A stretch of 64,000 bases of DNA from Williamsia faeni (GTDB lineage: Bacteria > Actinomycetota > Actinomycetes > Mycobacteriales > Mycobacteriaceae), in contig QJJF01000002.1 in assembly GCA_003202005.1 (NCBI GenBank), positions 620,001 through 684,000 on the forward strand, read 5' to 3'. The notes below the pieces were generated by a model. That model did not search any database. It was not told where the DNA came from and saw only the letters and a program-made list of their open reading frames with translations. Below are positions 10,396-18,784 of this stretch, piece after piece. Made by a program: the position numbers and the translations under genes. The first letter of the stretch is position 1. Every line of letters starts with the position of its first letter.

Positions 10396-10842
10396 GTGGC
10401 CCCCACACCGGACAACGCGGATCGGCTACGCGGCTCAGACCTTCGGGTCACCCGGCCGCGAATAGCGGTGATGGACGCTGTCCATGGCAATCCACACGCC
10501 GACACCGAAACCATCTTCGATGTGGTACGTGCAGTTCTGCCCACAGTGTCACGCCAGGCTGTATACGACGTACTGAACGCGCTGACCACCGCGCAACTGG
10601 TTCGCCGGATACAGCCCGCCGGTCATGTCGCCCGTTACGAGAGCCGAGTGGGCGACAACCACCACCACGTGGTGTGCCGAATATGTGGTGCCATCGCCGA
10701 CGCAGATTGCGCAACCGGCGAACGTCCTTGTCTCACAGCCTCCGACGACCATGGCTTCGTTCTCGATGAGGCCGAGGTCATCTACTGGGGTCGATGTCCC
10801 AACTGCACCGAACCCGCCGCAATACCCGATCGCATCCAGTGA
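10396..10842 (+). CDS. furA: Fur-family redox regulator FurA
   Basis: 148 residues from GTG 10396. The winged-helix part holds RVTRPRIAVMDAVHGNPHADTETIFDVVRAVLPTVS and the recognition helix RQAVYDVLNAL. The metal-binding half has HHHVVCRICGAIADADC and a C-terminal CPNC pair. It lies 36 bp before katG on the same strand, the furA-katG arrangement conserved in mycolata, where FurA is a peroxide-sensitive repressor of both genes. No strong ribosome site precedes the GTG, so translation may be leaderless. Confidence 0.94.
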   Translation: MAPTPDNADRLRGSDLRVTRPRIAVMDAVHGNPHADTETIFDVVRAVLPTVSRQAVYDVLNALTTAQLVRRIQPAGHVARYESRVGDNHHHVVCRICGAIADADCATGERPCLTASDDHGFVLDEAEVIYWGRCPNCTEPAAIPDRIQ

Positions 10843-13065
<2,223 letters not shown>

Positions 13066-13080
13066 TTTCGTAGACGATCG

Positions 13081-13109
13081 CACCCCGCTTGCCACTGGCA
13101 GGCGGGGTG
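13081..13109. terminator. Hairpin after katG
   Basis: Stem CACCCCGC / GCGGGGTG (8 bp) enclosing a smaller GCC-AC-TGGC-type stem, 15 bases after the katG stop and followed by a T/G-rich stretch. A good terminator candidate separating katG from the FhuF-like gene. Confidence 0.65.
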
Positions 13110-13163
13110 TTGTCGTTGTGTTAGATTCAGCGAGTCGCAAAGACACGTAAGAGGAGCCGGATC

Positions 13164-13850
13164 ATGCAAGCCACCAACGCATTCGGTCAGAGCTCTTCGG
13201 ATGCCGCGATGCTCCTCGCCCGGCTGTCGGAATCAGGAATGTATTTCACACTCGGAACCGGACCGGTGGCCGACGATGATTGGCAGCCCACCGCGACGCT
13301 CCGCCGGCCTGCGGTCCGGGATCGTGTTGTCGAGGAGGTCGCTCGGCAACTCGACGTCGACGAGATACGGGTTGCCGCCTCCACGCTGTTCTTCGGCTTT
13401 GCGGCCCGGTTGTGGTCCGTTGCGGCCGGAACCCGCCAGGTGGACGGACGGTGTGTGAGCATCGGACCCCAAGAACTGTTGTGGCGCTCCGTCAATGGCT
13501 CACTGCAGCTTCACATCGAAGAGCCACGGATGGGCCGATCGGCGCGGACCGAGGTCCTGGACAACCACATCGATCCCTGCATCGAGGCATGGCGAGACAT
13601 CGTCGCGCCCGGATTACTTTGGGGCAACACCACATCCGCACTTCTCGGCGCCGCAGGCGTCACCGGCGACACCAATTCACGGTGGGTCACCGCACTGCTC
13701 AACGATCCTCGTCTTCAGCTCACACTGGAGCCGAACACCCATCGTCGACGTAGTTGCTGCCTCTTCTACCGAACACCGGCCGGCGGCGTGTGCGGCGACT
13801 GCCCATTCCCCTGTGCACCATCAGCGCCACCGGCAACAGGGACAATGTGA
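13164..13850 (+). CDS. FhuF-like (2Fe-2S) ferric reductase-type protein
   Basis: 228 residues. The C-terminus carries the motif RRSCCLFYRTPAGGVCGDCPF, giving Cys198-Cys199-x10-Cys210-x2-Cys213. This CC-x10-C-x2-C pattern binds the 2Fe-2S cluster in FhuF-type siderophore-iron reductases. The preceding 190 residues include TLFFGFAARLWSVAAG and an LLWGNTTSALLGAA segment typical of the family's helical part. It probably releases iron from ferric siderophores in the cytoplasm. AGGAG seven bases before ATG 13164 supports the start. It sits just downstream of furA-katG, separated by a hairpin. Confidence 0.85.
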   Translation: MQATNAFGQSSSDAAMLLARLSESGMYFTLGTGPVADDDWQPTATLRRPAVRDRVVEEVARQLDVDEIRVAASTLFFGFAARLWSVAAGTRQVDGRCVSIGPQELLWRSVNGSLQLHIEEPRMGRSARTEVLDNHIDPCIEAWRDIVAPGLLWGNTTSALLGAAGVTGDTNSRWVTALLNDPRLQLTLEPNTHRRRSCCLFYRTPAGGVCGDCPFPCAPSAPPATGTM

Positions 13851-13861
13851 GCGCGACTCAT

Positions 13862-14299
13862 TCAATCGAGACAGAACTCATTGCCCTCGGGGTCAGTCAT
13901 GACGATGTGCCCGCCACCTAGTGGTGGATCGGGTTCAAACCGCCGGATACGGGTCGCCCCGAGTGCCACCAGTCGGGCTGATTCCGCTTCCAGTGCCGAC
14001 ATCCGTTCATCGCCGGCCAAACCCGGGGCAGCACGAACGTCGAGATGAACCCGATTCTTGACCGACTTGCCCTCCGGGACACGCTGGAAGAAGACCCGAG
14101 GCCCGCTCCCATCGGTGCTGACGACTGCCGATGCGTCGTTGCGTCGCTCGGGTGGGATGTTCAGCGCATCCAAGGCCGCCTCCCAGGAATCGAATCCCGG
14201 TGGTGGACCCTGGATTTCGTAATCCAGCACATCGGCCCAGAAGGCGGCCAACCCACCTGGATCACCGCAGTCGACAGTCACCTGAAACTCGCGAGTCAT
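13862..14299 (-). CDS. Glyoxalase/VOC-superfamily protein
   Basis: 145 residues with one paired beta-alpha-beta-beta-beta VOC unit. It begins MTREFQVTVDCGDPGGLAAFWADVLDYEI, has FFQRVPEGKSVKNRVHLDV mid-way and ends GGHIVMTDPEGNEFCLD, all typical of the glyoxalase-like domain of actinobacteria. His and Glu residues in RVHLDV and GNEFCL may be metal ligands. Substrate unknown. It lies downstream of lcp on the same strand, but a 10-bp inverted repeat separates them. It converges on the FhuF-like gene. Confidence 0.85.
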   Translation of the reverse strand: MTREFQVTVDCGDPGGLAAFWADVLDYEIQGPPPGFDSWEAALDALNIPPERRNDASAVVSTDGSGPRVFFQRVPEGKSVKNRVHLDVRAAPGLAGDERMSALEAESARLVALGATRIRRFEPDPPLGGGHIVMTDPEGNEFCLD

Positions 14300-14394: not shown

Positions 14395-15618
14395 TTATTT
14401 GTACTGCGGATTGTTGCCCACCGGGATGGTGATGTTGATCGGCATTCTCAACTCCGACATGTACAACAGGACAAACTGGCGGAGGAACTCGTCGATCAGC
14501 CAATACGCCTCGTTGGGCGTACCCAGGTCGAGTAGGCCTTCTCGCACGGTCACATATGGACCCCACGCGGTTTCCAGCAGAGGCGTCCAGACCGGTTCGG
14601 TCGGCATTTGAAGCCAGTCGCCGATCTTGTCGCCGAGCATGAATCGCGTCAACGCGCCGAGAATGGGCCGGCTCAACAGCGTCAGATCCAGGTTCATGCC
14701 GAGGTCGAGAAGCATGTCGGCGAGTTTGATGCCCTCCGGAGTCGGCGCGAGAATCGGGTCGAGCACCTGCTGCGCCTGCGACTCGGCAGTCGCCCACGAG
14801 GCCGGGATGTACTCGTCTCTCACGCCGAGCAGGTGGGCGCTCAACTGCCAGGAATGCAGAAAGCCCGCGGATTCGTCGGCCGCGATCGGCACGTTCCACC
14901 GCTTGAAATTGCGCATTACGGTTGTCGGCAGGCTGTGCCAGGTGACCATGATGTCAGCCTGGCTGATCGGGATCTCCTCCGGAGCCGAGTTCACCCAGTG
15001 CGCAGACCTGGGGAGCAAGTACCTCACGGCCGCGTGCGCCAATCGGGTCTTCACGCACGTGACCACCATTTCGCCGTCGGGTTGATAAGCGTTGAGGGAT
15101 CCGATGTCGTAGCCGAGTTTGGCGGTCTTGGTGATGCGGTCCTTCATGTCCGCACCGCCCTGGGAGTAATAGACCGCGCGGGCTTCCCGGGGGATGACCG
15201 TGCTCATCATTCCGCTGGCGAACCCATAGATGACACCGAGATATGTGCCGCGCTTCTGGTTGAATCTCACTGCGTCAGCGAGCTTTTGCTGATCAGCCCA
15301 GTCCGGTAGTTGGCGGGCCTGCTCCATGAAGTCACGCAGCTCCGTGGGCAACCCCTGGGGCAATGGCTGACCATTTTTTGTCCAGTTGCGTAACAACTCG
15401 TTGACTTTGGGTACCTCACCACGTTCGAGAAGGCCCGCGACAACAGGATCCGCCTCCACATCCCACACACCGCGCGGATCGGCCCCGCCCCCGACGCCGG
15501 GTACCGAACCTGCCGGCGACCATGTCCACGGCGTCGACGGCGCGACCAACGCAACTGCCCCGGCGGCCCCCACAACCCCACCTGCCTTCAGCACAGTGCG
15601 CCTGTTCAGCTTGTCCAT
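14395..15618 (-). CDS. lcp: Latex-clearing protein (rubber oxygenase), Tat-exported heme enzyme
   Basis: 407 residues from ATG 15618, the same length as Lcp of Streptomyces sp. K30. The N-terminus NRRTVLKAGG plus a hydrophobic core is a twin-arginine signal, with a Pro-rich exit at about 26-40. The core has Glu145, Arg161, Lys164, Thr165 and His195. These match K30 E148, R164, K167, T168 and H198 (the heme-ligand and active-site set) at a constant offset of three. RLAHAAVR and DIMVTWHSLPTT are further Lcp signatures. Lcp is a b-type cytochrome that cleaves cis-1,4-polyisoprene outside the cell to oligo-isoprenoid keto-aldehydes. A divergent TetR gene adjoins it. Confidence 0.93.
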   Translation of the reverse strand: MDKLNRRTVLKAGGVVGAAGAVALVAPSTPWTWSPAGSVPGVGGGADPRGVWDVEADPVVAGLLERGEVPKVNELLRNWTKNGQPLPQGLPTELRDFMEQARQLPDWADQQKLADAVRFNQKRGTYLGVIYGFASGMMSTVIPREARAVYYSQGGADMKDRITKTAKLGYDIGSLNAYQPDGEMVVTCVKTRLAHAAVRYLLPRSAHWVNSAPEEIPISQADIMVTWHSLPTTVMRNFKRWNVPIAADESAGFLHSWQLSAHLLGVRDEYIPASWATAESQAQQVLDPILAPTPEGIKLADMLLDLGMNLDLTLLSRPILGALTRFMLGDKIGDWLQMPTEPVWTPLLETAWGPYVTVREGLLDLGTPNEAYWLIDEFLRQFVLLYMSELRMPINITIPVGNNPQYK

Positions 15619-15763
15619 TTTCTGTTGTCCCGTCCCGATTCCAGTTGCAATGAAACACCAATCGTTTCTCTGTATCATTCGTAGCAGAGTGTGTCGCGCA
15701 TCACAAGAGTGCAAGCAGGATTATGATCATGGCGAGAACCGGATCACCAGACGAGGAGGGCTT
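15619..15763. promoter_or_regulatory. Divergent lcp / TetR promoter region with candidate operators
   Basis: This 145-bp gap separates two divergent genes. It contains GAAAC-N7-GTTTC (15652-15668), 34 bp before lcp, and an imperfect dyad GTG-N3-CGCG-N3-CAC around 15690-15705. Either may be the site for the adjacent TetR protein. In Gordonia polyisoprenivorans VH2 a TetR-type repressor, LcpR, is known to control lcp from the same position. The exact site here is inferred. Confidence 0.45.
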
Positions 15764-16444
15764 GTGGCATCTGCGCCAACCGATAGCCCCCGATCACCTG
15801 AGCCCAAGTCCTTGATCGAACGCGCCTTCGATCAAGCGCTGGAGCAGGCGGACAATGGCGATCGAACCCGGACCCGCGTGCTCGATGCGGCGTACGAACA
15901 GTTCTGCCGGATGGGGATCCAGCGGTCCTCGATGGAGGACGTGGCCCGCCGCGCGGGCCTGTCCCGGATCACCGTCTACCGACGATTCGCCACCAAGGAC
16001 GAACTGGTCGAACAGGTGATACTCCGCGAATTCCGCCGATACTTCGATCAATTCCTGATCGACATCCAGCAAGCCGAAACAGCCGCCGACCGAGTGGTCC
16101 TCGGATTCGTGAGCTCGCTGCGCGCGATCCGCGGCAATCCGATGATCGGCGGACTCATGTCGGCCGAACCGAACCTCATCGCCGGGTCGATGGTCGGCGA
16201 CGACGGACTGATGCTCGCCACCGTCCGTCAGTTCCTGGCCGCACAACTCCGCCTGGAACAACGTGCGGGCAACGTCTCGGCAAATCTGAACACCGACCTG
16301 GTCGCCGAGATGATGGTGCGGGTGTCCGCGTCGTTTCTGGCCATCCCCAGCCACGTCGTCGACCTCGACAGCGACGAAGAACTGTCCGCGCTCGCCTGGC
16401 AATTTCTCGTACCGATGCTCGATCCGCCTGCCACGCCGCGCTGA
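15764..16444 (+). CDS. TetR-family regulator divergent from lcp (LcpR-like)
   Basis: 226 residues from GTG 15764, preceded by a strong GAGGAGGG. The N-terminal DNA-binding part is TRTRVLDAAYEQFCRMGIQRSSMEDVARRAGLSRITVYRRFATKDELVEQVILRE, a standard TetR helix-turn-helix at about residues 35-85. The rest is a helical ligand-binding domain with no assigned ligand. Position next to lcp and opposite orientation suggest it represses rubber oxygenase expression until rubber-derived products appear; this is by analogy with LcpR. Frames reading further upstream overlap lcp and are not used. Confidence 0.88.
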   Translation: MASAPTDSPRSPEPKSLIERAFDQALEQADNGDRTRTRVLDAAYEQFCRMGIQRSSMEDVARRAGLSRITVYRRFATKDELVEQVILREFRRYFDQFLIDIQQAETAADRVVLGFVSSLRAIRGNPMIGGLMSAEPNLIAGSMVGDDGLMLATVRQFLAAQLRLEQRAGNVSANLNTDLVAEMMVRVSASFLAIPSHVVDLDSDEELSALAWQFLVPMLDPPATPR

Positions 16445-16546
16445 CCCGTCGGCGATGAGTTCCGGAAACCGTTGCGGTCTACATGGTCGTATCGGGATTT
16501 TGAGTCGACCCGAACCCTGACCGCAGGCGGCGAAAGGTACATCGAC

Positions 16547-17365
16547 ATGGGAGCACTCGAAGGCAAGGTCGCTTTGGTCACCGGAGCCGCACGGGGGCAA
16601 GGGCGGGCGCATGCGGTGACCCTGGCCCGAGAGGGAGCGGACATCGTGATGTGCGATATCGCCGCGCCGGTGGAAGAGGTCGACTACCCCGCGGCCACCC
16701 CGGACGACCTCGGGGAAACGGTCCGTCTGGTCGAATCACTCGACCGGCGTTGCCTTTCCGATACCGCGGACGTACGCGATCTGCCGGCACTGCAAAACCT
16801 TGTCGACCGGGCGATGACCGCGATCGGCCCCATCGACATCGTGGTGGCCAACGCCGGAATCGCCACCGTCGGCCCGATCGCAACCATGTCCACACAGCGC
16901 TGGCAGACCATGCTCGACATCAACCTCACCGGCGTCTTCAACACATTTCGGGCAACCCTGCCCCATCTGATCGATCGCCGGGCGGGCCGAATCGTCGCCA
17001 CCTCGTCGATAGTCGCCGGCACCGGAGCCGTCAACTCGGGCCACTACGCCGCAGCCAAGGCCGGGGTCGTCGCACTGGTGAAGACGGTGGCGCATGAGGT
17101 CGCGGAATACGGCATCACGGTGAACGCGGTTCTCCCGTCCGGGGTGAACACGCAGATGCTCCACAGTCCATCCGTGTACCGCATGATTCGCCCGGATCTC
17201 GACGAACCCACCTGGGAAGACGCCGAATCCGTGTTCTCACAAGGTCGTCCACGACCGGGCCTTCTGGAACCCGAAGACGTGGCCAACGCCGTCCTCTACC
17301 TGGTTTCTGACGTCGGCCGTTGCCAGTCCGGTGAGTCGATCACCCTATCGAATGGTTTACAGTAG
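16547..17365 (+). CDS. Mycofactocin-coupled short-chain dehydrogenase (SDR)
   Basis: 272 residues from ATG 16547 (AAAGG upstream). The Rossmann motif [25 protein letters not shown] and the roughly 20-residue insert around [17 protein letters not shown] are hallmarks of the mycofactocin-dependent SDR group, whose NAD(H) is thought not to exchange freely. The NAG motif (VVANAGIA), Ser of ATSSIVAG and the YxxxK pair HYAAAKAG follow. It probably oxidises an alcohol using the mycofactocin redox carrier. It follows the lcp regulator by 100 bp and precedes the amidohydrolase, so a role in terpenoid or hydrocarbon breakdown is plausible. Confidence 0.88.
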
Positions 17366-17512: not shown

Positions 17513-18784
17513 ATGAATATTGACGACATGGTGATGGTCAGCATTGACGATCACGTGGTCGAACCTGCCGACATCTTTGAAAAGCACTTTCCGAAGAGTC
17601 TCATGGAACATGCGCCGAAGCTGACGGCCAATCCGCGCAACCCCAAGGTGCAGGCCTGGCTGTTCCAGGACCAGGTGGTCGGCAGCTCCGGCCTCAACGC
17701 CGTCGTCTCCTGGCCGAAGAAGGAATGGGGCATGGACCCCACGGGCTACGCGGAAATGCGTCCCGGCGTCTACGACATGAGCATGCGAGTGCGCGACATG
17801 GATGCCAACGGCACCCTCGCGGCCACACTCTTCGCCACGTTCCCGGGTTTCGCGGGCACCCACCTGGCCAGCTTGCCGGACAAGAAGCTGTCCCTCGCGG
17901 CCTGCAAGGCATTCAATGACTGGGTGGTCGGCGAGGTCCCCACCACTCATCCCGGACGCTTTATCCCGATCGGTATCATCCCGTTCTTCGACCCCGAAGA
18001 GTCGGTCAAGGAGATCCATCGGCTCGCGGCGATGGGCTGCCGTTCCATCAGTATTCCCGAGACCCCCTATGGCTCGGGCTATCCCGATTTCAAGTCCGGA
18101 TACTGGGATCCGATGTTCAAGGCGTGCGTGGAACACAACATCGTCCTGAGCCTGCACATCGGTGGCGGCTTCAGCCTGCTCAAGCGCCCCGAGGGCTTCA
18201 ACCTCGACGACATGATGGTTCTGACACCACTCATCTCGACCATTGCAGCCAACGACATGCTGCTCAGCGGAGCCTTCCAGCGGTTCCCGGACCTCAAGAT
18301 CGCGATGAGCGAGGGTGGAGTCGGCTGGGTTGCGCCGTGGCTGGACCGTGTCGAACGCCACCTCGACAACCAGGCCGAATGGCTGGGCTCGGACTTCCTG
18401 CCGAAGGGTATGACCGCAACGGATGTATGGCGCAAGAACTTCCTGGCGTGCTACATCACCGAACCGAGTGGACTGAGCAATCGGGACCGGCTCGGAATCG
18501 ACACCATCGCCTGGGAGTGCGACTACCCGCACTCGGACTCCACCTGGCCCCACTCGCCAGAGGTGCTCAAGAAGGAACTCGACGAAGCGAACTGCACCGA
18601 CGAGGAGATCGACAAGATCACCTTCGGCAACGTGGCACGGTTCTTCGACTGGGACCCGTTCAAGCACATCTCGCGTGAGCAGGCGACCGTGGGCGCTTTG
18701 CGTGCACGCGCCACGGACGTCGACACCGCAGTGACCTCCAAAGAGGAATACCGCCGTCGCTACGAGCTCGAGCACACCTCGTAG
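17513..18784 (+). CDS. Amidohydrolase-family (PF04909-type) metal-dependent hydrolase
   Basis: 423 residues. It starts MNIDDMVMVSIDDHVVEPADIFEKHFP; the DDHVVEP motif is the first metal-binding strand. LSLHIGGG carries the second His, and WECDYPHSDSTWPHSPE near 340-360 holds the conserved Asp of the TIM-barrel. This group includes decarboxylases and hydrolases of the amidohydrolase-2 type, common in actinobacterial catabolic regions; the substrate is not identifiable. GAGAGGA five bases before ATG supports the start. An inverted repeat lies upstream and a strong hairpin follows. Confidence 0.9.
   Translation: MNIDDMVMVSIDDHVVEPADIFEKHFPKSLMEHAPKLTANPRNPKVQAWLFQDQVVGSSGLNAVVSWPKKEWGMDPTGYAEMRPGVYDMSMRVRDMDANGTLAATLFATFPGFAGTHLASLPDKKLSLAACKAFNDWVVGEVPTTHPGRFIPIGIIPFFDPEESVKEIHRLAAMGCRSISIPETPYGSGYPDFKSGYWDPMFKACVEHNIVLSLHIGGGFSLLKRPEGFNLDDMMVLTPLISTIAANDMLLSGAFQRFPDLKIAMSEGGVGWVAPWLDRVERHLDNQAEWLGSDFLPKGMTATDVWRKNFLACYITEPSGLSNRDRLGIDTIAWECDYPHSDSTWPHSPEVLKKELDEANCTDEEIDKITFGNVARFFDWDPFKHISREQATVGALRARATDVDTAVTSKEEYRRRYELEHTS

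Follow-up and report, generated by a model that had tools for sequence, protein, structure and literature searches.

A rubber oxygenase (lcp) locus with a divergent TetR regulator, and a conserved, predicted LcpR-type operator pointing to a possible wider regulon

The window (the whole 64-kb stretch of DNA that was analysed) carries an lcp gene and, adjacent and divergent to it, a tetR gene. The features of the locus and its neighbours are given with window coordinates, strand and basis of assignment.

13862-14299, minus strand: glyoxalase-like protein, 145 aa, directly 3' of lcp after a 95-bp gap (PF18029, 100 bits)
14395-15618, minus strand: lcp, 407-aa latex clearing protein (rubber oxygenase) with Tat signal (Pfam, LcpK30 match, residues, trees)
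15644-15679, minus strand: predicted LcpR operator, 36 bp, 25 bp before the lcp ATG (matrix); on the lcp strand it reads AATGATACAGAGAAACGATTGGTGTTTCATTGCAAC
15690-15705, minus strand: CRP-like box TGTGA-N6-ACACA, imperfect (motif in the window sequence)
15764-16444, plus strand: TetR-family regulator of the LcpR type, 226 aa, divergent neighbour of lcp (PF00440)
16472-17365, plus strand: mycofactocin-type SDR downstream of tetR (TIGR03971)
17513-18784, plus strand: amidohydrolase downstream of tetR

The lcp frame starts with ATG at 15618-15616 and encodes, as originally predicted, a 407-residue protein with a twin-arginine signal (PF10518, TAT_signal, 25.7 bits, cut-off 22.7; NRRTVLK); its catalytic domain matched PF09995 (DUF2236 / MPAB_Lcp_cat) with 59.8 bits (cut-off 23). 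When the protein was compared with solved structures by phmmer, LcpK30 of Streptomyces sp. K30 was matched twice (5o1l, E 2.9e-141; 5o1m, E 1e-135), and nothing besides LcpK30 was found at E <1. Identity to LcpK30 was 54.7% over 402 columns of a 125-sequence Lcp alignment, in which E145, R161, K164, T165 and H195 were aligned with E148, R164, K167, T168 and H198 of K30, at the offset of three positions that had been claimed. Four of these five residues were invariant across the other 124 Lcp rows, and the Lys167 column held Lys in 115 rows and Arg in 9. E-value, identity and the five residues together put the match to LcpK30 far beyond chance. According to the available text of PMC5522427, the haem ligands of LcpK30 are His198 and Lys167, the Arg164Ala and Thr168Ala muteins lost nearly all activity, and Glu148 is proposed as the base. 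In the 13-residue Lcp region KTRLVHAAVRHLL, given in excerpts of PMC8235351, the window protein reads KTRLAHAAVRYLL and agrees at 11 of 13 positions. At columns conserved to at least 90% it deviates three times, which is the median of the Lcp set. The window lcp is a real, ordinary member of the Lcp family with a known type of regulator, and polyisoprene cleavage, which the original prediction had called firm, is a fair prediction from these sequence features.

The PF09995 domain is shared more widely: the genome has 11 matches, two of which are Lcps and nine are not. The domain would also fit a DUF2236 oxygenase with a different substrate, whether of MpaB type or one that attacks nitrile rubber, like Nro1. 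The original assignment was to be given up if the protein fell outside the Lcp clade; in a DUF2236 tree built from Lcps and seven of the nine non-Lcp PF09995 proteins of the genome, it fell inside that clade, in one cluster (support 93/94) with LcpK30 and a further 12 Lcp rows. One paralogue (own_C2_441) joined beside the Lcp group (100/99 for 15 rows) and the other six stood apart, on a tree whose outgroup branches are long. Together with the 54.7% identity to LcpK30, and with an identity of just 12.8% between Nro1 and Lcp1-VH2 reported in the accessible part of PMC12724181, this separation from the seven other DUF2236 proteins makes a different substrate class scarcely credible. The window Lcp shares with LcpK30 the fold family, the Tat signal and the five residue equivalents; it differs in the identity level and in that K30 lcp is accompanied by oxiAB (PMC9782182, in the text available), which the window lcp lacks. 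Identity to the Lcp encoded by lcp2 of Gordonia polyisoprenivorans VH2, on plasmid p174 (locus L071), was 63.8% over 378 columns. A 54-row Lcp tree placed the window protein among the Lcps of its genus (95/87), with less firm support (94/76) for a position beside the second Lcp of the same genome; its end branch was 0.16, against 0.064 for the second copy.

The DNA-binding domain of the regulator scored 47 bits on PF00440 (cut-off 24). Its longest open frame begins with TTG at 15386 and overlaps lcp; the likely start is GTG 15764, giving 226 aa and an lcp-tetR gap of 145 bp (15619-15763). This arrangement recurs: an adjacent divergent TetR of the LcpR type was present at 56 of 59 named lcp loci, at 7 of 11 loci of the genus (the window being one of the 11; the remaining 4 have the operator and no adjacent TetR) and at 42 of 59 loci of the family. 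Beyond the genus there were 88 lcp matches, of which 60 were taken for the family set, one being too short to judge; the set repeats some species of the named one, and 12 of its 17 loci without an adjacent TetR belong to one genus (g22). Compared with the TetR encoded on VH2 plasmid p174, the window TetR was 56% identical; there the gene lies about 3.8 kb downstream of lcp2 on the same strand, whereas in the window it is divergent and adjacent. A TetR/AcrR gene likewise adjoins lcp1 in Actinoplanes sp. OR16 (ACTI_59620), and its product binds the lcp promoter (PMC7413915, as far as its text was available). The nearest kin of the window tetR (78%, in another genus) are not those of lcp; at a support of 97/78, below the starred level, this was too weak for a foreign origin of tetR to be accepted.

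An operator matrix was grown from the upstream regions of 68 lcp loci, 66 of which have the site (L029 and L031 lack it), with the consensus gaTGATACacaGA..C......tGTTTCA.cGtATC. The site at 15644-15679 scored 46.5 (45.0 with the window locus left out; best of 1360 shuffles, 6.8) and was the sole matrix site in the window. In the family set, most loci of which were unused for the matrix, a score of at least 15 was reached at 38 of the 42 loci with an adjacent TetR (the other four scored 15.0, just below the limit, 13.3, 12.8 and -3.7), and at 2 of the 17 loci without one; in both of these (L194, L195) a TetR relative is encoded at another place in the sequence fetched. The published sites of LcpR-VH2, a TetR-type lcp regulator quoted in the available text of PMC7413915, also fit the matrix (lcp1, 24.1; lcp2, 25.8; 0 of 2000 shuffles as high for either), and the published lcp2 site was found exactly in plasmid p174 (L071, position 9844). 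OR16 differs in having an lcp1-lcp2-oxiB-oxiA transcription unit, and its palindrome, as given in the same partial source, scored just 7.4 (4 of 2000 shuffles equal or better). Because the operator tracks the adjacent TetR and the LcpR-VH2 sites were recovered, the window TetR very probably binds 15644-15679, as judged from sequence. The original description of a rubber oxygenase gene with an LcpR-like regulator is thus supported by homology and key residues, by the trees, and by the conserved gene order together with an operator akin to the LcpR-VH2 sites. The position of the operator just before lcp suggests that LcpR represses lcp. A TGTGN-N6-NCAC box stood within 60 bp upstream of the operator at 47 of 66 loci, against 0.33% in shuffles, and resembles the CRP-VH2 motif named in the available part of PMC8235351; the imperfect box of the window might rather belong to a -35 element.

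The SDR and amidohydrolase genes lie nearby on the same strand as tetR, so that the regulator might mainly control these and adjoin lcp incidentally; an SDR 33% identical to that of the window also follows tetR at 2 of the 59 named loci (L034 and L053, Dactylosporangium). No SDR match follows tetR at the other named loci compared, however, no amidohydrolase match stands beside tetR at any locus compared, and the only operator of the window lies between tetR and lcp, which together make control of lcp the far better reading and the alternative quite improbable. Membership of the two genes in a rubber cluster was mostly rejected too: other SDR matches are not after tetR, the lone amidohydrolase match (L100, 46%) is away from it, and SDR kin in four other genomes of the genus stand in different contexts. 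The SDR neighbours in sister genomes have no flanks in common and so give no guide to a possible insertion of the lcp locus.

A second lcp was found in the genome at C3:549305-550522; its protein is 85% identical to that of the window, and its tetR, also divergent, is 72% identical to the window's. The genome thus has two LcpR-like regulators, either of which could act at the window lcp. At the C3 locus (L072 8296-10523, about C3:548295-550522), lcp, an esterase remnant matching residues 245-302 of a cutinase-like esterase, a globin gene and tatA follow one another on one strand; genome-wide there are three TatA/B/E matches, this tatA among them, and one of the three barely passes the cut-off. 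The original prediction had missed the operator, the glyoxalase-like gene 3' of the window lcp and the existence of this second locus. A whole-genome search with the operator pattern (up to 3 mismatches; backward control, 0) returned three sites, at the two lcp promoters and at C1:959406-959436. The third was read as a relic and rejected as a further LcpR target, since none of the lcp, tetR, globin and glyoxalase queries gave a tblastn match in the 39 kb around it; it lies in the following stretch.

L234 15374-15442 = C1:959373-959441: 69-bp relic, 78% identical to the C3 lcp promoter region

With two copies present, the C3 locus might be the one that degrades rubber, the window lcp being a spare that is little used or cleaves another polyisoprenoid. 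The 85% identical C3 gene has globin and tatA downstream, in the type of order seen in the other readable genomes of the genus, the window protein has the longer end branch, and it has Tyr at the position of K30 H203, where 113 of 124 rows have His. Against this, the window frame is intact with all five residues retained, its three departures from well-conserved columns equal the set median, and its operator is closer to the matrix than that of C3 (46.1 vs 22.5). On balance a spare copy is considered unlikely. An lcp gene was present in 9 of 9 genomes examined of the genus and in 97 of 301 of the family, own genome included (E 1e-100). In G007, contigs C33, C34, C35 and C45 have lcp or globin at their ends, and in G006 these genes lie near the ends of C11, C60 and C68; several near-identical lcp copies probably broke these assemblies.

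In the K30-type operon, oxiA and oxiB follow lcp; no oxiAB genes were seen downstream of the window lcp. Nor was a close OxiB found in the genome with the OxiB of the Dactylosporangium AC04546 lcp operon (L034) as query, which gave four weak matches (best E 5.5e-5, 26% over 127 residues). The absence of oxiAB after lcp had been stated correctly, but not the accompanying contrast with VH2: the available text of PMC9782182 has VH2 without OxiAB genes, and that of PMC8235351 reports no oxiAB homologue, and aldehyde dehydrogenases present, in Gordonia and Nocardia. In this respect the window locus resembles VH2. The surroundings of the second lcp include, 2-7 kb away (L072 12594-17076), genes for a CoxG-like protein and for a Cox-type molybdenum hydroxylase of three subunits. 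This CoxLMS-like enzyme was rejected as OxiAB (it is of the CoxG-linked three-subunit type and absent from the four weak matches); it could oxidise aldehydes.

Relatives carry single-domain globins (PF00042) immediately or a short way 3' of lcp. Such linkage was seen in 8 of 8 genomes of the genus with a readable lcp 3' side (G006, whose contig ends inside lcp, is outside this count), to which the own genome contributes its C3 copy alone, and in 6 of the 46 Gordonia (g9) genomes that have lcp. TatA (PF02416) and cutinase-like esterases (PF01083) join lcp-globin units in several relatives, in the following orders.

G321, G326: lcp-cut-tatA-globin
G151, G249: lcp-tatA-globin
G094, G219: lcp-cut-globin
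G007: lcp-cut-globin-tatA (plus an lcp-globin contig)

As listed by the search, some globin matches (G326, G322 and G005) cross a stop codon, and these genes may not be intact. Matches to globin, tatA and esterase were absent from the 64-kb window. There, the glyoxalase-like gene is possibly co-transcribed with lcp; among the loci examined, this order recurred only in Gordonia rhizosphera (L010, 77%).

Operators in front of globins far from lcp give the clearest hint of a wider regulon. The Gordonia set comprises 33 globins, 6 of them lcp-linked and 27 unlinked; of 23 unlinked ones fetched, 6 had the operator upstream and 17 lacked it. In five of the six the operator centre was 39-55 bp before the globin, and in G322 the order was operator-tatA-globin.

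L203, L204, L206, L207, L208, L231: loci of six Gordonia (g9) genomes with the operator before a globin or tatA-globin that is not linked to lcp

When the matrix was run over 1,719,303 fetched bases, in which some genomes occur twice, 131 matches of at least 12 were obtained, 121 at lcp, 6 at globins and 4 elsewhere. Operator-like matches at neither gene include L102 11073-11108, L044 11072-11107 and L192 1837-1872; the L102 match is located some 415 bp 5' of the lcp operator, downstream of an esterase-like frame (26%). Genes for this type of globin were present in 25 of 59 Gordonia genomes, all 25 with lcp, and in 0 of 13 lcp-less ones (one-sided exact p 2.3e-4, kinship ignored). Linked or operator-bearing globins occupied two places in the globin tree, near the sister genus and in one Gordonia subclade (87/96), which lies within a Gordonia group mostly without the operator and includes one operator-less globin (L227); recruitment may therefore have taken place twice, on a tree whose root is unsure.

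We lean towards the view that LcpR, in Gordonia and this sister genus, switches on a rubber-export module of Lcp, a second TatA, a cytosolic globin and a secreted cutinase-like esterase; here the module would stand at the second lcp, with the esterase decayed, and the window copy would be stripped of it, with the glyoxalase-like gene instead. Haem b is acquired by Lcp within the cell, and the folded protein is exported via Tat (PMC6311187, in the text available); an additional TatA and a haem protein controlled by LcpR would fit this course. By inference, the TatA would serve export of folded, haem-loaded Lcp, and the globin would buffer haem for Lcp or handle oxygen or peroxide. In the open-access literature searched, no globin, tatA or cutinase gene described with lcp or rubber was found, nor any description of helpers for Lcp haem loading or export, of further LcpR targets or of a wider LcpR regulon.

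With high confidence, the window is read as carrying an intact lcp-lcpR locus, one of two lcp loci in the genome, with a predicted exported, rubber-cleaving Lcp under probable LcpR control. Family, residues, gene order and operator conservation are read from the sequence; for haem, cleavage, direction of regulation, inducer and aldehyde step we infer the following course. LcpR would bind the 36-bp operator before lcp, most likely as a repressor, and come off it in response to a signal, from rubber or of another kind; the CRP-like box beside the operator might add carbon-status control. Lcp would fold with haem b in the cytoplasm, leave by Tat and, outside the cell, cleave cis-1,4-polyisoprene to oligo-isoprenoids with aldehyde and ketone ends. 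As the genome has no OxiAB, their oxidation would probably fall to aldehyde dehydrogenases inside the cell, the route reported for VH2. Accounts of actinobacterial rubber breakdown in the literature consulted centre on Lcp and on what becomes of its products; the interest of the locus lies in the operator and the wider regulon it indicates, by which further genes may belong to the rubber programme. The LcpR-site matrix points to a globin, a TatA and an esterase, possibly of use for better Lcp production.

Adjoining the lcp locus, at 10396-13850, lie genes for a FUR-family regulator, for what we take from its sequence to be a katG-like catalase-peroxidase, and for a protein with an FhuF C-terminal domain.
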